Source: Thioalkalivibrio sp. XN279 | GTDB lineage: Bacteria > Pseudomonadota > Gammaproteobacteria > Steroidobacterales > XN24 | Length of the DNA: 64,000 nucleotides | Direction: 5' to 3' | NCBI RefSeq assembly: GCF_011089885.1 | Contig: NZ_JAANBD010000015.1 | Coordinates: 124,001 to 188,000, forward strand | Part shown: positions 2,546 through 61,027 of the stretch, piece by piece | Numbering within the stretch: the stretch's first letter is position 1 | Layout: every line of letters starts with the position of its first letter | Translations under genes and position numbers: made by a program | Notes under the pieces: model-generated | Told to the model about the DNA's origin: nothing | Databases searched by the model: none | The model's input: only the letters and a program-made list of their open reading frames with translations

Positions 2546-2794
2546 ATGGAACCCAAGAGGCCGAACATCGACGAACTGGCCCGGCGCCTGGCCGACAGCC
2601 TGCCCGGGGGGCTCAAGGCCCTGCGCGAGGATGCGGAACAGAACTTCCGCGCCGTGCTGCAGGCGGGCTTGTCCCGTCTCGATCTCGTCACCCGCGAAGA
2701 GTTCGACGTGCAGGCCGCGGTACTGAAGCGCACGCGCGAGAAACTCGAGGCGCTCGAAGCGCGCCTGGCGAAGCTCGAGCAGCCACCGGAATAG
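2546..2794 (+). CDS. ubiK: Ubiquinone biosynthesis accessory factor UbiK
   Basis: An 82-residue protein of the UbiK/YqiC (BMFP) family, which trimerises and assists the ubiquinone biosynthesis complex with UbiJ. The features seen are the family opening IDELARRLADSLPGGLKALREDAEQ, the LSRLDLVTREEFDVQ segment, and a C-terminal coiled coil (LEALEARLAKLE). The ATG at 2546 is preceded by GAGGA. It is divergent from the nitrogen operon, and the NtrC-like site lies just upstream of it. Confidence 0.9.
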   Translation: MEPKRPNIDELARRLADSLPGGLKALREDAEQNFRAVLQAGLSRLDLVTREEFDVQAAVLKRTREKLEALEARLAKLEQPPE

Positions 2795-3003
2795 CGCCCG
2801 CCGGACTGCCGCCCGGCAGCCGTTCCCCGCTGTCTGCGCACCTGCGTGGAAGTTTCCCGGCTTTCAGTCCATAGTTGGTGGATGGCTGCACGGCTTTGCA
2901 GCCGTGCCAGGAGGGCGGCATGCCACCGGATGGAGCGAGATTCCGCGGGACCGGCACGGACGGGGACCGAGCCCGTGCCGAGAGGGTGGTGGCGTCGCAG
3001 ACC

Positions 3004-4581
3004 ATGCGTTCACGTGCGCCGCCGGTGGTGCTGGCGTGGATCACGCCGATGGTCGTCGTCATCGCGGTGGCGATCACTTTCTGCACCGCGTTCTACGTCC
3101 TCGACTCGCTCCTGTTCGGCGCCGACCTGCATAGCGCCAGCAGCATCTTCCAGCACTACCTCTCTTTCGATCCCGTGCTCATCACCGACGCGCTGCCGAC
3201 GCTCGGTATGACCATCGTGGCGGTGCTCGGCATCGTGCTCACGGTGGTGGCCATCATCGTGCAGCTGTCTTCAGAGCGTTACACCAGCGTCGCGATCATG
3301 TTCCTGCGCGAGCCGGTGCACATCGCGGTGATCAGCTTCTACATCGTCGCCAGCCTGTGCGCCGTGTGGCTGAGCGTGACCTTGCGGCCCGACTTCGTGC
3401 CGCGCAGCCTGCTGCTGCTGGTGATGATCCTGACCAGCCTCGGCCTGGCCGGGATGTTGCCTTATTTCGCCTACACCTTCTGGTTCCTGGAGCCGGGCAA
3501 CATTATCGACCGCCTGCGGCGCAACACCGCGCGCCTCACCGCGCGCGGCCTGGCGGCGCAGGAACCGGAGGAGGCGAACCGGATGCAGCGGCGGGTGCTG
3601 GAGAAGATGGAGGAAATCACCGACATCGCCAACAACTCGATCGAGGGCCGGGACAAGATCATCGCCGGCGCGGCCGTGGACGCCCTGTGCGACTTCGCCG
3701 TCGATTACGTCGCCACCAAGCCCGAGAAAGACATCGCCTGGTACCGCCTCGGTCCCGAGCTGCGCTTCAACCCGGATTTCGTCGCCATGGACACGGAGTT
3801 GCTGGCGGAACTCGAGACGCGCCGGCTATGGGTGGAGTGGAAGACGCTGCACGAGTACCTGCGCGTGTACTACGAGGCGCTGGACTCGATGACCGATGTC
3901 GCGTCGCAGGTCGCGATCGACACCCGCTACATCGGCGAGGCGGCCGCAGACACGCAGCAGACCGACCTGATCCGCATGGTGTTCCGCTTTTTCAATTCCT
4001 ACCTGCGGGCGGCGATCGACCGGGGCATCGAGCGGACCGCTGACGACGTGCTGCTGCAGTACCGCATGCTCCTCGAGCAACTCCTGCGCCAGGAGCTGTG
4101 CGAGGAGGCGTGCGAGGGCGTGCGCTTCATGAAGCACTATGGCTACCTCGCCTTCGAGGAGGAGCTGATCTGGATCACCGAGACCGTCGCCTACGACATC
4201 GCGAGCCTGTGCCGCTACGCCCACCAGGAACGGCTGGGCTGCGACGAGGCCATGCTGTTCGAGCTGCTGGCGCTGGACTCGGAAGGCCCCGGCGATACCC
4301 GTCGTCACTACCGCGGCCTGCGCGGCGTGCGCAAGGCGCAGACGCGCCTGGGGGTCTATTACTTGTCCGAGGGTGACGAGATGAAGGCCGGCCTGGTGGC
4401 GGACGACATGGCCGAGATGTCCCCGGTTTTCAAGGCCGAGGTGCGTAACGACCTGTGGCTGCAGGCTCCGCCCCACTTCTGGGAGATCGTCGACCGGGGA
4501 CGGAACCTGCATTACCTGACCGACAAAGAGCGCGGCTACCTCGACCGGTTCCTCGACCAGGTCCGCACCAGCCACGCCTGA
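3004..4581 (+). CDS. DUF2254-like integral membrane protein
   Basis: About 525 residues. Four hydrophobic helices occupy roughly residues 12-33, 65-88, 105-124 and 134-158, followed by a soluble, mostly helical region of about 360 residues. The VQLSSERYTSVAIMF segment after the second helix resembles the family's LQ(L)xSSxxS motif, so DUF2254 or a close relative is the best assignment. The function of the family is unknown. The start is uncertain: an ATG at 3004 directly precedes the first helix, but the frame stays open upstream to 2875. The stop codon is followed by the first member of the conserved-loop hairpin family. Confidence 0.7.
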   Translation: MRSRAPPVVLAWITPMVVVIAVAITFCTAFYVLDSLLFGADLHSASSIFQHYLSFDPVLITDALPTLGMTIVAVLGIVLTVVAIIVQLSSERYTSVAIMFLREPVHIAVISFYIVASLCAVWLSVTLRPDFVPRSLLLLVMILTSLGLAGMLPYFAYTFWFLEPGNIIDRLRRNTARLTARGLAAQEPEEANRMQRRVLEKMEEITDIANNSIEGRDKIIAGAAVDALCDFAVDYVATKPEKDIAWYRLGPELRFNPDFVAMDTELLAELETRRLWVEWKTLHEYLRVYYEALDSMTDVASQVAIDTRYIGEAAADTQQTDLIRMVFRFFNSYLRAAIDRGIERTADDVLLQYRMLLEQLLRQELCEEACEGVRFMKHYGYLAFEEELIWITETVAYDIASLCRYAHQERLGCDEAMLFELLALDSEGPGDTRRHYRGLRGVRKAQTRLGVYYLSEGDEMKAGLVADDMAEMSPVFKAEVRNDLWLQAPPHFWEIVDRGRNLHYLTDKERGYLDRFLDQVRTSHA

Positions 4582-4598
4582 CCGCCTGTGACCTCGTG

Positions 4599-4679
4599 GC
4601 GGCCGGCCGGCGCCGACACAGGCGCCCTTCGTTCGGAAGTCTTTATCTCGCTCAGTGCGCCTGTGACGTCGCCGGCCGC
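4599..4679 (+). repeat. Conserved-loop hairpin, copy A
   Basis: Outer arms GCGGCCGGC (4599-4607) and GCCGGCCGC (4671-4679) enclose inner arms CACAGGCGC (4617-4625) and GCGCCTGTG (4657-4665), both perfectly complementary, around a 31-nt loop (4626-4656). The loop begins CCTTCGTTCGG and contains CTTTATCTCGCTCAGT, shared with copies B and C. It starts about 18 bp after the DUF2254-like stop, in a TGACCGC context also found at the other copies. Confidence 0.85.
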
Positions 4680-4800
4680 CCGGTAGTTGCGTCGGTGCAG
4701 GTATGTCCGGATTTCCCGGCCTGTTGCCCGGTTTTGGCGGCTTACCTCGAATGCCGTTGCGCCCGAACATGGCAGGGTGTGCGGGCTCGGGGGGGTGGGG

Positions 4801-6303
4801 ATGGCGTTGGCGAAGGTGCTGAGCCGGGCGCAATGCGGCCTCGAGGCGCTGCCGGTGACAGTCGAAGTCCACGCCGGCGGCGGGCTGCCGGGGTTCAACA
4901 TCGTGGGGCTCCCGGCGACGGCGGTGCGGGAAAGCCGCGACCGCGTGCGCGCGGCATTGTCGAACTGCAGCTTCCGCTTTCCTGCCGGCAAAGTGATCGT
5001 CAACCTGGCGCCGGCCGACCTGCCGAAAGAGGGCGGGCGCTTCGACCTGCCCATCGCGCTGGGGGTGCTGGTCGCCTCGGGGCAGCTTCCCGGGCGCTGT
5101 CTCAAGGTCACGGAGTTCCTCGGCGAGCTTTCCCTCAATGGAGACTTGCGGCCGGTGCAGGCTCCGCTGTGCGCGGCCATCGCCGCGGCAAGCAAGGGGC
5201 GGACGCTGGTCGTTCCCTCGGCTTCGGCTGCCGAGGCGGCTGTGGCCGGCGCCGGCGAGGTACGCGCGGCGCAACACCTGCTGGCGGTGGCGGCGCACTT
5301 GCAGGGCCGCAAGCCGCTGCCGGTCGTGACGGCGCCGCCGCGCTTGATGGCGGGGATACACCAGGGCCCGGACCTGTCCGAGGTGCGCGGGCAGCAGCGG
5401 GGACGGCGCCTGCTGGAACTCGCCGCGGCGGGCGGGCACAACCTGCTGTTCATCGGTCCGCCCGGCACCGGCAAGACCATGCTGGCGCGACGCCTCGGGG
5501 GGCTGTTGCCGCCCCTCGACCCGGCCACGGCCTTGCAGGTGGCGTCGATCGCCTCGGCGGCCGGCAAGCCTTTCGCGCCCGACGACTGGGGACGCCGCCC
5601 GTTTCGTGCCCCGCATCATTCCGCCTCTTCCGTAGCGCTGACCGGCGGCGGCGCCAACCCGCGGCCGGGCGAGGTGACGCTGGCCCACCACGGCGTCCTG
5701 TTTCTCGACGAGCTGCCGGAGTTCAGCCGCACGGCGCTGGAGGCATTGCGGCAACCACTGGAGGAGGGTGAACTGACCATCAGTCGCGCCGCTGTGCAGC
5801 GCACTTTCCCGGCCCGTTTCATGCTGGTAGCGGCGATGAACCCCTGTCCCTGCGGCTTCCTCGGCGACCCGCGCGGAAACTGCTGTTGCAGCGCCGATGC
5901 CGTGCAGCGCTACCGCTGGCGCATTTCCGGGCCGCTGCTGGACCGTATCGACCTGGTGGCAGAGATGCCGCGCCCCGCGCCGGAGGAGATGCTCGGGCCG
6001 CCCGGCGAATCCTCAGCGCGGGTGCGCGAGCGGGTGCGTGCGGTGCGCGACACGAGCGTGCGGCGGCAGGGCGGCCTGAACGCCCGCCTCGAAGGCAAGG
6101 CGCTGGACACGCATGCGGCGCTCGACCCGGCGGGGCGGGCCCTGCTGGTGCGCTCGGCGGAGAAGCTGGGCCTTTCGGCGCGCGCGCAGACGCGGGTACG
6201 GCGGGTGGCGCGCACCATCGCTGATGCGGCCGGGGCGGAGGCGATCGGGCTGCGACACCTGGCCGAGGCGCTGTCGTGCCGTGGCCTGGATCGAATGGAC
6301 TAG
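4801..6303 (+). CDS. comM: YifB/ComM-family Mg-chelatase-like AAA+ ATPase
   Basis: A 500-residue AAA+ protein. It has the N-terminal ChlI-like domain (GGLPGFNIVGLPATAVRES), a Walker A GPPGTGKTM, a Walker B LFLDELPEF, and the C-terminal helicase-like domain with NPCPCGFLGDP and a cluster of cysteines (CCCSADAVQRY). In competent gammaproteobacteria ComM is a hexameric branch-migration helicase that helps integrate transformed DNA. The ATG at 4801 gives the typical N-terminus MALAKVLSRA. It is transcribed away from hairpin copy A. Confidence 0.93.
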   Translation: MALAKVLSRAQCGLEALPVTVEVHAGGGLPGFNIVGLPATAVRESRDRVRAALSNCSFRFPAGKVIVNLAPADLPKEGGRFDLPIALGVLVASGQLPGRCLKVTEFLGELSLNGDLRPVQAPLCAAIAAASKGRTLVVPSASAAEAAVAGAGEVRAAQHLLAVAAHLQGRKPLPVVTAPPRLMAGIHQGPDLSEVRGQQRGRRLLELAAAGGHNLLFIGPPGTGKTMLARRLGGLLPPLDPATALQVASIASAAGKPFAPDDWGRRPFRAPHHSASSVALTGGGANPRPGEVTLAHHGVLFLDELPEFSRTALEALRQPLEEGELTISRAAVQRTFPARFMLVAAMNPCPCGFLGDPRGNCCCSADAVQRYRWRISGPLLDRIDLVAEMPRPAPEEMLGPPGESSARVRERVRAVRDTSVRRQGGLNARLEGKALDTHAALDPAGRALLVRSAEKLGLSARAQTRVRRVARTIADAAGAEAIGLRHLAEALSCRGLDRMD

Positions 6304-49610: not shown

Positions 49611-49708
49611 GCCCGCCGGCGCCGGTTTTGTCGCGCTCGTCGCATTTACGCCGCGGGCGGTAAACTGCCGCCTCCATTCCGACTGATATGCAACGGAGCC
49701 CGCCGCCC

Positions 49709-50380
49709 ATGAGCCTGAAGCTGCAAACTGTCGAGCGCGAGACCGGGCCGGAACCGACCACCAGCGTGATCTGGCTGCACGGCCTGGGCGCCGACGGTTA
49801 CGACTTCGACCCCATCGTGCCCGCGCTGCGCATCGCCGGCGGCCCCGAGACGCGCTACGTGTTTCCGCATGCGCCGATTCGCCCGGTGACCATCAACGGC
49901 GGCATGGAAATGCGCGCCTGGTACGACATCATCGCCATCCAGCGCGGCGCGCAGGAGGACACCGGGGGCATCCGCGAGAGCGCCGAGGCGGTGAGCGCGC
50001 TGATCGCGCGCGAGGCCGAGCGCGGCATCCCGCCCGAGCGCGTGGTGCTGGCCGGCTTCTCCCAGGGCGGCGCCATCGCATTGCATGCCGGCCTGCGTTA
50101 CCCGCAGCAGCTCGCCGGCATCATCGGCCTGTCCACCTACCTGCCGCTCAAGGCGGCCGGTGGCGAGTTCCACGCAGCCAACCGCCAGACCCCGCTGTTC
50201 ATGGCGCACGGCACGATGGACCCGGTCGTCCCGGCCTTCCTTGGCGAGGAGAGCGCCGAGCTGCTCACGCAGGCCGGCTACCCGGTGGAGTACAGGAGCT
50301 ACGTGATGCCGCACTCGGTGTGCCCGGAGGAGGTCGAGGACATCCGCAACTGGCTGCGCCAGCGCTTCGCCGCGGCCTGA
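49709..50380 (+). CDS. Carboxylesterase/phospholipase (alpha/beta hydrolase, EstB type)
   Basis: 223 residues. It has WLHGLGADGYDF (oxyanion loop), the nucleophile elbow GFSQGGA, the acid in AHGTMDPVVP and the histidine in MPHSVCPEE, a complete triad. The length and PIRPVTINGGMEMRAWYDI segment match the small bacterial carboxylesterase/lysophospholipase family. The ATG at 49709 gives MSLKLQT. Hairpin copy B follows 40 bp after the stop. Confidence 0.93.
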   Translation: MSLKLQTVERETGPEPTTSVIWLHGLGADGYDFDPIVPALRIAGGPETRYVFPHAPIRPVTINGGMEMRAWYDIIAIQRGAQEDTGGIRESAEAVSALIAREAERGIPPERVVLAGFSQGGAIALHAGLRYPQQLAGIIGLSTYLPLKAAGGEFHAANRQTPLFMAHGTMDPVVPAFLGEESAELLTQAGYPVEYRSYVMPHSVCPEEVEDIRNWLRQRFAAA

Positions 50381-50420
50381 CCCCGGCCGCACCGGGACCC
50401 TTCGCCTCCAAGACCTGAAC

Positions 50421-50499
50421 GCGGGGCCGGGCCGTGCAAGGCGCCCTTCGTTCGGAAATCTTTATCTCATTCAGTGCGCCTTGCACGTCCCGCCCCCGC
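50421..50499 (+). repeat. Conserved-loop hairpin, copy B
   Basis: 79 nt in an 11-1-12-31-12-1-11 layout. Foot GCGGGGCCGGG (50421-50431) pairs with CCCGCCCCCGC (50489-50499, one mismatch). Inner stem CGTGCAAGGCGC (50433-50444) pairs perfectly with 50476-50487. The 31-nt loop (50445-50475) is nearly identical to that of copy A. Paired head to head with copy C. Confidence 0.92.
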
Positions 50500-50694
50500 T
50501 GCCGTGTCGCAGGCGCGAGGCCCTGGTGGGGCACTGGGGCTTCGGCGGCGGCGCCGACGCGTCCGCGCGCCGCTCAGTAAGCTCGCGGTCGGCTACGTGG
50601 CTGCCCGAGTTCCGAATCCGGCCGACACCGCGAAGGCCGGCTTCGCCCCCGGAGGCGCCGTGCGCCACCGAAACCCGCCCCCTGCAACCAAGCA
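50500..50694. other. Non-coding spacer between hairpins B and C
   Basis: 195 bp of GC-rich sequence without a supportable gene or promoter. It is bounded on both sides by inward-facing hairpins. Similarity to the spacer between copies D and E is at most weak by eye. Confidence 0.6.
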
Positions 50695-50773
50695 GCGGGG
50701 CCGGGACGTGGAACGCTCACTGAGCGAGATAAAGATTTCCGAGTGAAGGGAGCGTTCCACGGCGCGGCCCCGC
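50695..50773 (-). repeat. Conserved-loop hairpin, copy C
   Basis: 79 nt, same layout as copy B on the opposite strand. Foot GCGGGGCCGGG (50695-50705) pairs with 50763-50773 (one mismatch). Inner stem CGTGGAACGCTC (50707-50718) pairs perfectly with 50750-50761 and has no similarity to the copy B stem. The 31-nt loop (50719-50749) is the reverse complement of the A/B loop with few changes. It begins 3 nt after the S9 peptidase stop codon. Confidence 0.92.
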
Positions 50774-50775
50774 GG

Positions 50776-52698
50776 TCAGTGCAGGGCGGCGCCGCCGAGA
50801 TCGAGCGCCGGCACGTCGCCGGCCGGCGTGACGCCGAGCACCCGGCAGTAGAACGCCAGCTCGGCCTCGAGCGCGGCCCTGATGTTCTCGGCGCGGCGGA
50901 AACCGTGTCCTTCCTCGGGGAACTCGAGATAGGCGGTCGGAATGCCGCGCTCGCGCAGCGCGGCGTGCATGCTGCGGCTCTGCTCGGGCGGCACGACCTT
51001 GTCTTCGCCGCCCTGGAAGAAGATCACCGGGCAGCGGATCCGGTCGGCGTGCTTCAGCGGCGACCGTGCGTCGAGCAGCCGTTGCGTGGCCGGGTCCGAG
51101 GGATCACCGATGAGCCAGCGATCGTACTGTGACTCGAACTTGTGCGTGGTGCCGAACAGCGCGCCCACGTCGCCGATGCCGTAGTAGCTGGCGCCGGCGC
51201 GAAAGGCGTCGGTGAAGGCCAGGGCGCAGAGCACGCTGTAGCCGCCGGCGCTGCCGCCGCTGATGAAGGCGGCCTCAGGATCCGCGAGGCCCTGTTGCGC
51301 CAGGAAGCGCACGCCGGCGACACAGTCCTGCACATCCGCCTCGCCCCAGCGCCCGTAGAGGCTTTCGCGGTACTCGCGGCCGAAGCCGGTGCTGCCGCGG
51401 TAGTTCACGTCGAGCACGGCGAAGCCGCGCGTGGTCCAGAACTGGATCTTCGCGTCGAAGGCCGGCGAGGTGGCGCCGGTCGGGCCGCCATGGCATTTCA
51501 CGATCACCGGCGGCGTGGTGCCGGCGGGCGCGACGTGCAGCGGGTTGCAGGGCGGGTAGTAGAACGCATGCGCCGTGGCGCCGTCGCCGGTGGGGAAGCT
51601 CAGCGCGCGCGGGTGCGAGATCCACTCTTCCTTGAGCGGCAGCGGGCCGGTGTCTGCGACCAGGCGCGGCCGCATGTTGGGCGCGTCCAGCAGGTACACG
51701 CCCATGGCGCGGTCGGGCCCGCCGGCCAGGACCACCGCCTCGCGGCCGTCGGTGGCGAAATGATCGATGGCTTCGAGCCGCCAGCGTTCGCGGGAGGGCA
51801 GCCCGGGGCCGAAGTGCCACAGTTCCCAGCTGCCGTCGCGGCTCATGGCGCCCATCATCCCGCCCGAGATCTCGCCCCAGGTGGACTGGCCGAACACCCA
51901 TTGCGGCATCCCGCCCTCGGAGTCCATCGTGGTGAAGCGCTCCGTATGACGCCCGTCCCACGCGTAGTGGTTCCACCAGCCGTCGGGATCGGCGACATAG
52001 CCGAGGCGTCCGTCGCGCAGCCACTCCGGCTGGAACACGGAGACACGCTCGCCGCCGGCGACTTTGCGCGAGTCCGCCGGTCGCCCGTCGGCATCGAGGC
52101 GAGCCATCCACAAGGTGGTGCCGTCCCAGGGCAGGCGCGGATGGTCCCAGGAGAGCCAGGCGAGGCGCTCGCCGTCCGCGTCGAGGCGCAGCGAGGCATA
52201 GAAATCGTGGCCCTCGAGGAGGGTGGTGATGGTGCCGTCGTCGCTGATGGCCACCACGCTGGCGCGCGGCTCGCCCGGGGTGCCGTGATCTTCACAGACA
52301 GCCAGCAGGCGCCGCCGCCGGGGGTCGCGCCTGAGATCCGCATAGCGGCGCTGGTCGGCGGGCGTGAGTTGCCGTATGTCGCCCCCGGCATCGCGATGCC
52401 AGATCGCCTGGTCGGCGTCGTTGACGAACCAGGCCTCGGCCCCGAGCACGCAGTAAGCCCCGCCGCCGTATTCGTGCGCGCGGCTGCGCACGTTGAACGG
52501 CGCCGGCGTCAGCTCGCTGCGCCGCCTGTGCAGGTCCTGCATGAGGACGGTGCGGCCGCCCTCGGCGGGACGCTGCTCCAGCCAGCAGACCTGGTCGCCC
52601 TTGCGCCAGGGCTGCTGCAGCTTGACCCCGGCCCGGGCGACTTCGGCGGCGGACAGCGGCGATGACCAGCTGCCGCAGGGCGCTTCTCTCGGTTGCAT
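50776..52698 (-). CDS. S9-family prolyl oligopeptidase-like peptidase
   Basis: 640 residues. An N-terminal beta-propeller region (about 1-370) carries repeated W/D-rich blades; the C-terminal alpha/beta hydrolase has nucleophile SGGSAGGYSVL, acid region GGEDKVVPPEQ and histidine EEGHGFRRAEN, a full S9C-type triad. No signal peptide is seen, so it is cytoplasmic. It starts 1 nt after the TANGO2-like stop. Its own stop abuts hairpin copy C. Confidence 0.93.
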   Translation of the reverse strand: MQPREAPCGSWSSPLSAAEVARAGVKLQQPWRKGDQVCWLEQRPAEGGRTVLMQDLHRRRSELTPAPFNVRSRAHEYGGGAYCVLGAEAWFVNDADQAIWHRDAGGDIRQLTPADQRRYADLRRDPRRRRLLAVCEDHGTPGEPRASVVAISDDGTITTLLEGHDFYASLRLDADGERLAWLSWDHPRLPWDGTTLWMARLDADGRPADSRKVAGGERVSVFQPEWLRDGRLGYVADPDGWWNHYAWDGRHTERFTTMDSEGGMPQWVFGQSTWGEISGGMMGAMSRDGSWELWHFGPGLPSRERWRLEAIDHFATDGREAVVLAGGPDRAMGVYLLDAPNMRPRLVADTGPLPLKEEWISHPRALSFPTGDGATAHAFYYPPCNPLHVAPAGTTPPVIVKCHGGPTGATSPAFDAKIQFWTTRGFAVLDVNYRGSTGFGREYRESLYGRWGEADVQDCVAGVRFLAQQGLADPEAAFISGGSAGGYSVLCALAFTDAFRAGASYYGIGDVGALFGTTHKFESQYDRWLIGDPSDPATQRLLDARSPLKHADRIRCPVIFFQGGEDKVVPPEQSRSMHAALRERGIPTAYLEFPEEGHGFRRAENIRAALEAELAFYCRVLGVTPAGDVPALDLGGAALH

Positions 52699-52699
52699 G

Positions 52700-53461
52700 T
52701 CAGGACTCCGGGACAAATTCGAAACTGCGCTCGTCGACGGCTGCGCCGGCGGCATCGAAGCTGCGCTCGGTCAGCTCCATGGCGCTGCCCCGCGTGAGCC
52801 GCAGCACAGTGGAGCAGCGCGTGCCGTAGCGCGGGTCGGTGATGAAAGGTGCTGACAACAGGCGCTCCCACTCTGGCGGCAGCCCCGTGTCCGGTAGCTC
52901 TGCGTCGGCTGCCGGGACGCGGTCGGCCAGCATGTCCAGCAGGTCGGACGTGTCGGCGCCGGCATCCAGCAGGCCCGCGAAACGCGCGCGTGTGCGAGCA
53001 AGTTTCGGCCAGGGCGTGTCCAGCAGGTGGTTCGACAGGCCATACACCCCGGGTGCCAGCACCTCCGGGCCGCGCCCGCGGTTGGACAGGTAGACCAGTT
53101 CGTCGGGCGCGCCCAGCAGGAGGTTGAAACCGGCGTAGTCCTCGTGGTGCTGCGCGACGTGGCGCGCCCACTCGCGGGGCCCGGCGTCGCCACGCAGGAA
53201 GCCGGTCACGAGTTCGCCGCGCGAGCGCGGGCCGCGTCCCTCGGCCATGGGCTCGCGGTAGTTGGTGACCACGGCGAAGCGGCCGTCGCGGGCCGCGGCC
53301 AGCCAGGTGCCGCCGGCGCGCAGGTCGCGGCCGCCGACGATGCGGCCGCCCTCCCACCAGTCTGCGGGCGCGGCCGGGCGGTCGTGGAACTCGTCGCGGT
53401 TGCCGGCCAGCACCAGCGGTCGGGCGGCGGCGGTCTGCCAGGCGAACACGAGCAGGCACAT
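52700..53461 (-). CDS. NRDE/TANGO2-family protein
   Basis: 253 residues. The N-terminus MCLLVFAW begins with the conserved Met-Cys, and LVLAGNRDEFHDRPA carries the NRDE motif; GGTWLA and VTNYRE follow. An N-terminal nucleophile-hydrolase fold has been proposed for the family; TANGO2 homologues have been linked to haem trafficking. It lies 21 bp after nudC and 1 nt before the S9 peptidase gene. Confidence 0.9.
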   Translation of the reverse strand: MCLLVFAWQTAAARPLVLAGNRDEFHDRPAAPADWWEGGRIVGGRDLRAGGTWLAAARDGRFAVVTNYREPMAEGRGPRSRGELVTGFLRGDAGPREWARHVAQHHEDYAGFNLLLGAPDELVYLSNRGRGPEVLAPGVYGLSNHLLDTPWPKLARTRARFAGLLDAGADTSDLLDMLADRVPAADAELPDTGLPPEWERLLSAPFITDPRYGTRCSTVLRLTRGSAMELTERSFDAAGAAVDERSFEFVPES

Positions 53462-58839: not shown

Positions 58840-58869
58840 CCGCGGGGTCGGTTCCTGCAAGACCTGACC

Positions 58870-58947
58870 GCGTGGCCGTGACATGCATGGCACCCTTCGC
58901 TTGGAATTCTTATGCCGCTCAGGGCGCCATGCATGTCACGCCCCCGC
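58870..58947 (+). repeat. Conserved-loop hairpin, copy D
   Basis: 78 nt. The inner stem CGTGACATGCATGGC (58877-58891) pairs perfectly with 58926-58940; three further G-C pairs follow one mismatch. The 26-nt apical loop (58896-58921, TTCGCTTGGAATTC...GCTCA) is related to the A/B/C loop. The foot (58870-58875 with 58942-58947) is imperfect. Paired head to head with copy E. Confidence 0.9.
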
Positions 58948-59126
58948 TGCCACTTCAGGGCCTGCACGGACCGGGGCGTGCGGCCAGGAACTCACCAGAT
59001 CCGGCTCGCCTGGTGTCAGCCCGGCCCGATGTAGCTACGGCCCGCGTGACGACGGTCGGCTGGCGAGTGCCGGCGCAAGGTGCCGAGTCCGGGTGCGCTG
59101 TCGGCGCTCGGCCCTTTGGCGTCGCA
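58948..59126. other. Non-coding spacer between hairpins D and E
   Basis: 179 bp of GC-rich sequence without a supportable gene. It has inward-facing hairpins on both sides, as in the B-C spacer. Confidence 0.6.
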
Positions 59127-59204
59127 GCGGGGCCGGGTCCTGTAGGGTCCCCTGAGCGGCATAAGAATTCCAAGCGAAGGGGACCCTACAGGGGCCGGCC
59201 CCGC
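59127..59204 (-). repeat. Conserved-loop hairpin, copy E
   Basis: 78 nt. Foot GCGGGGCCGGG (59127-59137) pairs with 59194-59204 (one mismatch). Inner stem CCTGTAGGGTCCCC (59139-59152) pairs perfectly with 59179-59192. The 26-nt loop (59153-59178) is the exact reverse complement of the copy D loop, whereas the stems are unrelated. It begins 3 nt after the stop codon of the FakA-FakB fusion gene. Confidence 0.93.
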
Positions 59205-59206
59205 GG

Positions 59207-61027
59207 TCAGGTGTCGAGGCGTTGCAGGGCGACCACCAGCGTGCCGGGCCCGCCGTGCACGCCCAGCGCGGTGCCGATCTCGGTGACGAAGGCCTGCTCC
59301 AGGCCGGGCAGGCGCGCCTGCAGCTCAGCCAGCAGCTCGGCAGCGGCCTCCGGAGCATTGGCGTGGCCGACGGCGAGGCGCTGGCCGACGGGGGGCCCGG
59401 CGTGTTTCGCGATCCAGCGCGCGAACCGCGCGATGCGCCTGCGGTGGCCGAGCAGCGCCCCGGCGGTGCCGATGCGCCCGTCCGGGAAGGTGGCGAGGAT
59501 CGGTTCGAGGCGCAGCAGCCGCGCGATGACGCGCTTGGATGGCGGCACCCGCCCGCCCCGCACGGCGTGCTCCAGGCTGCCGAGCAGCGCCCAGGTTCGG
59601 GTGTTGGCGACGATGCCTTCCAGCGCGAGCGTGATCTCTTCGACGCTGTGCCCGGCCGCGGCCAGCTCGGCGGCGCGCAGCGCGACCAGCCCCTGGCCGA
59701 TGGACGCATTGCGGGAGTCGACCGCCAGCACCGGGGTCCGGGTGGCGGCGCGAGCCGCGGCGGATTGCGCGGCCTGGAAGGTGCCGCTGCCCCAGCCGGT
59801 CACATGGATGGAGACGATCCCGGCGTGGTGGCTGGCGAGAATCTGGTACAGGCGCCGGAAGTCGCCCGGGGGCGGCTGCGAGGTTGTGGGGTGCGCGTCG
59901 CTTTCCGCCATGAGGCGGTAGAACTCCGAGGTGTCCAGGCTGACCTTGTCGAGGTAACTTTGTGCGCCGAAATGGATGCGCACCGGCACGGTGTGGATGT
60001 CCATGGAAGTGAGCAGCTCTTCCGGCAGGTCGGCGGCGCTGTCGGTGACGACGGCGACGATTCCTGCGCCGCTGCGCGCCGCGACCTGCTGGGCCTGCAT
60101 GTCGTCGGCTTTCTTCGCGCTGACTGCGCCGAAGCGGGCCGCGGCGCGGAACACCTCCTCGGGGTCGTCCGCGTGAATGTGAATGCGTGCCCGTCGCGTG
60201 CCGCCGGCGATGACCAGGCTGCTGCCGAGACCGGCAAGGGCGCCGCGCAGGCGGCGCCGGTCCAGGTCGCCCGTGACCAGGCACTCGGTGCACCAGCGGT
60301 GACCGCTGTTGTCGCCCGCGTCGAAAAAACTGGCTTCCTGGGCCTGATGCGCTTGTCCCTGTGCGGGCGCCGCATTTTCGCTGTCGGTGCGCAGGGAGCC
60401 GTGGCGGACGAAATCCGTGATGCCCTGCAGCAGGTCGACGAAGCCCTGTGCCCCGGCGTCCACCACGCCCGCCTTGCGCAAGGCCTCGAGCTGCTGGGTG
60501 GTGGCGGCCAGCGAACGCTGTGCCCGTGCCAGTCCGGCGTCCAGCAGCGCCGCGAAATCCTGGCCGCCGGCGGCGATCTGCTGCCCCAATTCGGCGGCGA
60601 AATCGCGCACGACCGTCAATATGGTGCCTTCGCGCGGTTCGCTCAGCGCGTCCTGGGCGTAGCTGGCGCCCAGTTCCACTGCTGCCGCGAAGTGTCGGGT
60701 CGTGAGCAGGCGCTGGTCCTGGCTCGCGTCGCAGACGCCGTGGAAGAACTGCGCCAGGATGGCGCCCGAGTTGCCGCGTGCGCCGTCGAGCGCGGCGTCG
60801 GCGACGATCTCGAGCAGCTTGCCGGCGTGTCGCTCTTGGTGGCGCAGCAGCGCGGCGCGCACTGAGCCGAGCATCACCGCCAGGTTGGTGCCGGTGTCGC
60901 CGTCCGGCACCGGGAACACGTTGATGCGATTGAGATGCTCGGCGTCGGCCGCAACCCGCGCGATGCCGGCCAGCAGCCCGCGCGCCAGCCGTTGACCATC
61001 GAGGTACGCAATACCCGCTGTCGCCAA
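59207..61027 (-). CDS. FakA-FakB fusion (DAK2 kinase plus DegV fatty-acid-binding domain)
   Basis: 606 residues. The N-terminal DAK2/FakA domain (about 8-200) has NVFPVPDGDTGTNLAVML and DGARGNSGAILAQFFHG for nucleotide and metal binding. A middle domain resembling FakA (about 210-310) contains CTECLV and HIHADDPEEVF. The C-terminal DegV/FakB domain (about 315-600) opens GIVAVVTDSAADLPEEL and has the TSQPPPGDF acyl-binding motif. In Firmicutes these are separate proteins that phosphorylate exogenous fatty acids; here donor and carrier are one chain. It is convergent with yedK. Confidence 0.9.
   Translation of the reverse strand: MATAGIAYLDGQRLARGLLAGIARVAADAEHLNRINVFPVPDGDTGTNLAVMLGSVRAALLRHQERHAGKLLEIVADAALDGARGNSGAILAQFFHGVCDASQDQRLLTTRHFAAAVELGASYAQDALSEPREGTILTVVRDFAAELGQQIAAGGQDFAALLDAGLARAQRSLAATTQQLEALRKAGVVDAGAQGFVDLLQGITDFVRHGSLRTDSENAAPAQGQAHQAQEASFFDAGDNSGHRWCTECLVTGDLDRRRLRGALAGLGSSLVIAGGTRRARIHIHADDPEEVFRAAARFGAVSAKKADDMQAQQVAARSGAGIVAVVTDSAADLPEELLTSMDIHTVPVRIHFGAQSYLDKVSLDTSEFYRLMAESDAHPTTSQPPPGDFRRLYQILASHHAGIVSIHVTGWGSGTFQAAQSAAARAATRTPVLAVDSRNASIGQGLVALRAAELAAAGHSVEEITLALEGIVANTRTWALLGSLEHAVRGGRVPPSKRVIARLLRLEPILATFPDGRIGTAGALLGHRRRIARFARWIAKHAGPPVGQRLAVGHANAPEAAAELLAELQARLPGLEQAFVTEIGTALGVHGGPGTLVVALQRLDT

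Follow-up and report, generated by a model that had tools for sequence, protein, structure and literature searches.

The two hairpins that stand head-to-head between converging genes in the DNA analysed here belong to a multicopy family that has been found so far in one bacterial genus. In each hairpin of this family the structure is preserved on one of the two strands, which comprises, from the spacer outward, a GYAG tag, a foot, a mismatch, a stem of about 12 bp and a loop with the edges GAGCG...AGCGAG. The letters of the stem drift through compensated changes with G.U pairs among the intermediates, and the loop edges and the tag are nearly fixed. With slightly better than even confidence we read the family as a genus-restricted, REP/REPIN/BIME-like one, an unusual variant in which compensatory selection preserves a hairpin of the single strand. 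Its unit would be an inverted pair of hairpins of about 84 nt around a spacer, inserted mostly at gene convergences.

The window, i.e. the whole stretch that was analysed, comprises 64,000 nucleotides of Thioalkalivibrio sp. XN279 and carries the following features (window positions, strand, description):

49688..50380, +, convergent flanking gene 1, an ORF with matches in 6/6 genomes searched
50418..50501, + (loop orientation; selected strand -), hairpin B, left member of the pair, 99.9 bits with model R1 at G000:C15:174418-174501
50499..50502, -, GCAG (GYAG) tag at the 5' edge of the foot of hairpin B on the selected strand
50502..50692, no strand, spacer between B and C
50692..50695, +, GCAG (GYAG) tag at the 5' edge of the foot of hairpin C on the selected strand
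50693..50776, - (loop orientation; selected strand +), hairpin C, right member of the pair, 105.8 bits with model R1
50776..52755, -, convergent flanking gene 2, the longest ORF; a codon-usage gene finder puts its start later
4599..4682, +, lone family member whose foot is divergent, probably copy A of an earlier note on this DNA
58867..58949, +, left hairpin of a second pair, of another stem class (ATGCATGGC)
59125..59207, -, right hairpin of the second pair, of another stem class (CCTGTAGGG)

Hairpins B and C each consist of an 11-bp foot, a C.T mismatch and a perfect 12-bp inner stem whose arms are separated by an interval of 31 nt. The identical layout (11-bp foot, 1-nt mismatch, 12-bp inner stem, 31-nt loop) and the 12/12 complementarity of each inner stem which the earlier note described were thereby borne out. 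To this layout we add one internal mismatch in the foot of B and of C as well as structure at the edges of the loop, which on the opposite strand read as 2 bp, G.A/A.G, 2 bp, G.A/A.G; here the G.A positions were read off the alignment and left unscored, and the two 2-bp steps were counted. The inner stems of B and C had been called unrelated, which turned out to be wrong as 9/12 positions are identical and each of the three differences is compensated. Matches of gene 2 in tblastn searches adjoin gene 1 in the genomes G001, G002, G003 and G004, and there were none in the loci of G005 and G006.

A BLAST search of the pair against its own genome gave 38 matches on both strands. The covariance model R1, built from 26 hairpins, returned 66 matches at E values up to 1 in the 3.13-Mb genome, again on both strands. 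With the better strand kept and 27 fetched regions rescanned, the XN279 genome holds 51 non-redundant hairpins, a total that contains the 26 training copies of R1 by construction; two weak matches of the R1 rescan (15.2 and 13.7 bits) were not taken. All 51 copies lie between called genes, and many of them are at least 90% alike. Genome-wide copies which keep the loop edges while their stems covary, as the earlier note had proposed to look for with a covariance model, were therefore found. In the sister genomes G001 and G002 there are 33 and 19 hairpins, respectively, after three weak or partial matches had been dropped (L093 3290, L101 8614 and L116 2927). These three are excluded from the set of 103 hairpins used below, among which there are 67 distinct 12-nt left arms, and a set of 100 omits three more hairpins with flipped or fused loops.

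Outside these genomes R1 had 0 matches in 36 others, of which 4 belong to the same family and 32 to the same order. When R2 was run on 229 genomes of the class, with stricter filters at which weak matches are lost, it matched XN279 alone and none of the 228 others. Rfam 15 recognised one tRNA only in the window at gathering scores, and for 13 loci searched at E values up to 1 it gave 8 matches, all of them below their gathering scores. A scan of named genomes for the loop pattern pointed to Thioalkalivibrio sp. XN8 and one contig of a Kuenenia MAG; the latter was rejected as a family member since by eye the stretch contains no hairpin of this type. A viral origin was likewise dropped, as the loop pattern matched 0 viral contigs. 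In the titles and abstract openings of the open-licence literature we found no description of a pattern of conserved loops and covarying stems, or of concerted evolution of REPs, like that of this family.

The alignments show how the stems change. In the alignment of 26 copies both sides had changed in 21/23 pairs, and 92.4% of the cells were paired as compared with 69.5% after shuffling and 34.3-43.8% when the partners were slid. A second alignment (A4), read on the opposite strand, comprised 61 of the 69 non-redundant hairpins out of 103 and was made with plain MAFFT, which left some rows misaligned. Here both-side changes were seen in 25/27 pairs, and 84.2% of the cells were paired (shuffled 66.8%, slid 37.9-48.0%). 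The 2-bp step between the tandem G.A positions varied as well, with GC 48, GU 6, AU 2 and CG 1 at column pair 34-56 and CG 56 and UA 2 at column pair 35-55. Covariation relative to the shuffled controls together with the genome-wide R1 matches rules out a chance origin of the hairpins.

The imperfect pairs differ strongly between the two strands. When the arms of the 103 hairpins were aligned to each other on the strand on which the loop is written, the 2740 cells comprised 2399 Watson-Crick pairs, 140 mismatches of the A.C type, 5 G.U pairs and 196 other mismatches. The excess of A.C over G.U was kept when cells were collapsed by genome, position and pair (62 vs 5) and when they were collapsed by position and pair across all genomes (37 vs 5). 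An A.C cell on the loop strand is a G.U wobble on the opposite strand. Our first reading of the scarcity of G.U on the loop strand, namely double-strand DNA or template copying, was therefore given up. Among the remaining mismatches outside columns 12-14 and 27-28, 47 were pyrimidine-pyrimidine and 8 otherwise on the loop strand, the former being the less stable kind there. Moreover, the opposite strand folded better in 99/103 hairpins with RNA parameters and in 102/103 with DNA parameters. No strand bias was seen in the inner flanks, for which 41 of the 103 hairpins were used (52 polymorphic A/G columns vs 56 C/T columns), and in the outer flanks (12 vs 26) the bias, if any, goes the opposite way. 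Taken together, the A.C excess on the loop strand, the better fold of the opposite strand and the unbiased inner flanks argue that selection most likely acts on one strand of the hairpin, as judged from the sequences. This supports the suggestion of the earlier note that a structure of RNA or of single-strand DNA is under compensatory selection. The strand analysis does not separate RNA from single-strand DNA, and RNA folding accounts for the bias equally well.

The alternative offered in the earlier note, that a new inverted repeat is written around a fixed loop, found no support: compensated steps, with G.U intermediates on one strand, connect the stems to one another, and we rejected such a mechanism on account of their relatedness (9/12) and the strand-biased imperfect pairs. 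A relative of this idea is template-switch correction of quasi-palindromes, where replication copies one arm from the other and perfect stems arise by mutation bias without selection. The perfection of the inner stems in so many variants would be expected from such copying, and loop inversions at L080 relative to its orthologue L104 and within the locus L085 do show that arms can be exchanged. However, copying of arm from arm should not leave 140 A.C vs 5 G.U cells on one strand, nor should it preserve the loop edges, the tag and the mismatch (C.T or C.A) which separates foot from inner stem in many copies. Template-switch correction is therefore already disfavoured, and we regard it as very unlikely.

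The genomic placement of the hairpins bears on the main and serious rival, a structured RNA element at the 3' ends of mRNAs. According to this explanation each convergent transcript extends past the near hairpin and across the spacer, so that the far hairpin folds in its favourable orientation just before the stop codon of the opposing gene; the element would stop transcription, block 3' exonucleases or limit antisense read-through, and its copies would have spread by ordinary recombination. In line with it, 38 of 59 hairpin-bearing intervals were convergent as compared with 17 of 230 hairpin-free intervals at the same loci, and each of these 17 is at most 82 bp long. The other hairpin-bearing intervals were tandem (20) or divergent (1), and 38 of the hairpin-free ones were divergent. 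Furthermore, the selected strand is tied to the direction of the gene in convergent pairs, and tolerance of G.U on one strand as well as possible tandem G.A pairs are typical of RNA.

Other observations fit this rival less well. In the averages over 100 hairpins there was neither a U-tract after the hairpin (on the selected strand, T did not exceed 28% in any of the 4-nt bins that make up the first 48 nt of 3' flank) nor an AT-rich, promoter-like stretch before it on the spacer side, so that an intrinsic terminator and promoters in the spacer are both unsupported. Besides, 20/59 intervals are tandem; 8 of the tandem intervals carry a '+ -' pair, and in all 8 one of the two hairpins lacks a neighbouring transcript that runs in its direction. 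The preference for the opposite strand is also the same under DNA parameters. Compensatory evolution of intrinsic terminators has been described (PMC5381666), in which stems at 3' ends switch by compensated changes that pass chiefly through G.U, as in our family; in contrast to those terminators, however, the hairpins studied here have no U-tract and are homologous, multicopy elements with conserved loop edges. We consider the RNA element a real but tentative possibility, and clearly a less probable one than the REP-like reading.

Where an interval carries two hairpins (34 cases), their orientation is nearly invariant, with '+ -' in 33, '++' in 1 and '- +' in 0, two of the 33 having a second member that is matched only weakly or in part (L093, L116). 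The three dropped matches are still inside the interval counts. Three further intervals hold more than two hairpins each, and the spacer measures 44-269 bp in 35 neighbouring pairs. The gene ends next to the hairpins are distinctive, too: the stop codon is directly followed by CC at 42/76 hairpin-adjoining ends vs 29/215 others, and TGACCG is found at the stop at 20/76 vs 9/215. Interval and gene-end counts rest on a simple codon-usage gene finder, which missed at least one gene (L064).

On the selected strand GYAG lies within a 16-nt stretch at the 5' foot in 85/100 hairpins (76 GCAG, 9 GTAG), in 74/100 at one fixed offset, and its complement is present at the outer foot in 7/100; the tag is lacking in 15/100. 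The scarcity of GTAG and these hairpins without GYAG speak against the REP-like reading. CGTC, the tag of another REP superfamily, does not mark this family: it or its complement occurred within 18 nt of the 5' end in 7/100 and of the 3' end in 13/100. In PMC3733652 the GTAG superfamily of REPs is given stems of 5-13 bp and loops of 2-20 nt, and GYAG is listed as a degenerate tag. The family shares with REPs that it is a small extragenic palindrome in many copies, though its hairpins are larger than the described REPs, and that it forms inverted dimers at the 3' ends of genes. It resembles REP/BIME elements in extragenic palindromes arranged as inverted pairs, placement at gene 3' ends and between convergent genes, a tag 5' of the stem (here in the degenerate form GYAG), heterodimers of different stems and clusters. 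It differs from them in its 23 bp of foot and stem (11 + 12 bp with a mismatch) around an interval of about 31 nt with conserved edges, in tags that face the spacer and in the rarity of canonical GTAG itself. At L114 (3117-3624) of G002, three hairpins in direct tandem at a spacing of about 130 bp are followed by an inverted one, a cluster that looks BIME-like.

REPINs (PMC3116915) likewise consist of an inverted doublet with a spacer, with singlets as likely remnants and compensatory changes in the spacer hairpin. There, however, the REP ends are conserved and the doublet forms a hairpin together with its spacer, whereas here each member is a large hairpin of its own with free stem letters; unlike in the REPINs that go with a RAYT, no RAYT was found in the XN279 genome. 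The earlier note had called the pattern the reverse of REP. This is partly wrong: the pair layout, the 3'-end placement and the GYAG tag on the selected strand are REP-like, and for REP families both compensatory changes in the spacer (PMC3116915) and dimers that combine variant stems (PMC3733652) have been published. The family resembles a strand-specific hairpin doublet of the REP type and probably functions like one. We do not assign it to REP because stem and loop sizes lie outside the described range and the tag is only a degenerate one.

A Y1 (TnpA-REP-like) transposase, which the earlier note suggested to look for, was found in the XN279 genome neither by a family search with working controls nor by a search with a sister protein, which had no controls alongside. 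Elsewhere such genes exist, two each in G001 and G002 and one each in G003 and G004, and R2 had no match in the loci of about 3 kb around four of them (one each from G001 to G004). In one of these genomes, palindromes of the type TGGGGACTGTCCC flank a Y1 transposase gene (L163, G001:C27, 404-473 and 2042-2068) and are unrelated to the hairpin family. That no Y1 gene was found in XN279 despite many copies at least 90% alike, and that R2 had no match around the four Y1 genes, weakens the REP-like reading. Substrates of TnpA-REP (PMC8266576) are recognised strand-specifically as a folded single strand via tag, mismatch or bulge in the stem, and loop; the features of our hairpins would be compatible with a similar mode of recognition, a likeness of mechanism only, and unlike those substrates this family is linked to no enzyme. 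Autonomous elements were considered as well and rejected: where hairpins are widely spaced, the intervening or adjoining genes that were tested belonged to Fic, RHS, SBF, phosphatase, toxin-antitoxin and other Pfam families with no transposase among them; three of the first ten proteins tested there had no Pfam family.

Folded recombination sites of which only the bottom strand is used and whose stem letters are free are also known from integrons, and the hairpins might be attC sites or relatives of these, recombined by IntI. Chromosomal integron integrases (TIGR02249) are encoded in G001 (L142, G001:C55) and G002 (L141, G002:C36), and accessory genes including higBA-like and ccdAB toxin-antitoxin genes lie between hairpins in G002. 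The stretches around both integrase genes, however, contain no hairpins of the family, and of three PF00589 matches in XN279 the one tested is not IntI. A scan for attC-like motifs in the two integrase stretches and L112, the sole hairpin locus scanned, yielded one site, beside the IntI gene of G001, and none at the hairpins of L112. We hold an integron origin to be extremely improbable. In L112 (G002:C34:622500-631000) the genes for a HigB-like toxin and its HTH/IrrE-type partner as well as ccdAB are located between copies of the hairpin pair (2688-5698). Two of these pair copies are 93% alike over 287 bp, as if the toxin-antitoxin genes had been captured with a duplicated pair.

Comparison of shared sites suggests how the family turns over. 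Filled and empty sites were compared at two junctions: at the L073 site the stop codons of both genes overlap in 4/4 genomes from three other genera, and the junction in the window carries no hairpin in G002, G003 and G004. Judged by neighbouring genes, 22/27 XN279 regions have a hairpin-bearing counterpart in G001; in the pairing of L064 with L094 the counterparts are the hairpins at 4550 and 4770 and not the L064 hairpin at 3286. Despite these shared positions, 61/76 hairpins were closer to a copy in the same genome than to the hairpin at the orthologous site (36/43 in XN279, 25/33 in G001). In G002 turnover was not evident (7 vs 7, i.e. 7/14), which counts against the REP-like reading. The counts for the three genomes omit 13/103 hairpins without an orthologous partner in the set. 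Whole elements, too, are closer within a genome at many loci, with exceptions including L080, L087 and L090, and pairs are flipped between the orthologues L090 and L100 and between L083 and L107. An extra foot-like unit was found in 16/100 outer flanks (134 nt) vs 1/100 inner flanks (94 nt) and 7/4428 random segments of 134 nt; these figures come from a strict search with controls that replaces a looser one (47/100). Replacement by newer copies landing in older ones would fit the turnover data, which slippage or recombination may also explain.

Some single hairpins are rearranged. At L080 (3437-3519) compared with its orthologue L104 (2810-2891), and within the locus at L085 (3596-3678), the loop is inverted relative to the feet, with the arms exchanged. 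Such flips of loop orientation in place would be disfavoured by a strand-specific role and in this respect weaken the REP-like reading. A lone hairpin of G001 at L108 (3201-3285) has feet of the outer type on both sides and looks like a fusion of both members of a pair.

On the REP-like reading, which we prefer, a protein would read the tag, the loop and the mismatch on the folded single strand, as TnpA-REP does. Such a protein, or recombination among the copies, would spread new variants into sites which older copies occupy. Spread into occupied sites would account for shared positions with lineage-specific stems, for flipped pairs and for truncated older arms at the outer edges. A bolder version of this scheme, which we think unlikely, is a class of palindromic elements whose recognition code lies in the loop edges, the tag and the mismatch while the stem letters are free, and which homes without a Y1 transposase into its own older copies at shared convergent junctions.

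The family offers a naturally occurring example where sequence alone would allow one to deduce which strand and which structure a factor recognises, as the imperfect pairs are G.U on one strand only. As the dispersed palindromes are species-specific at shared sites, the copying or homogenising of REP-like repeats becomes directly testable. If the class with a code in loop and tag were real, each species would have a stem dialect of its own at genomic addresses that the species share.
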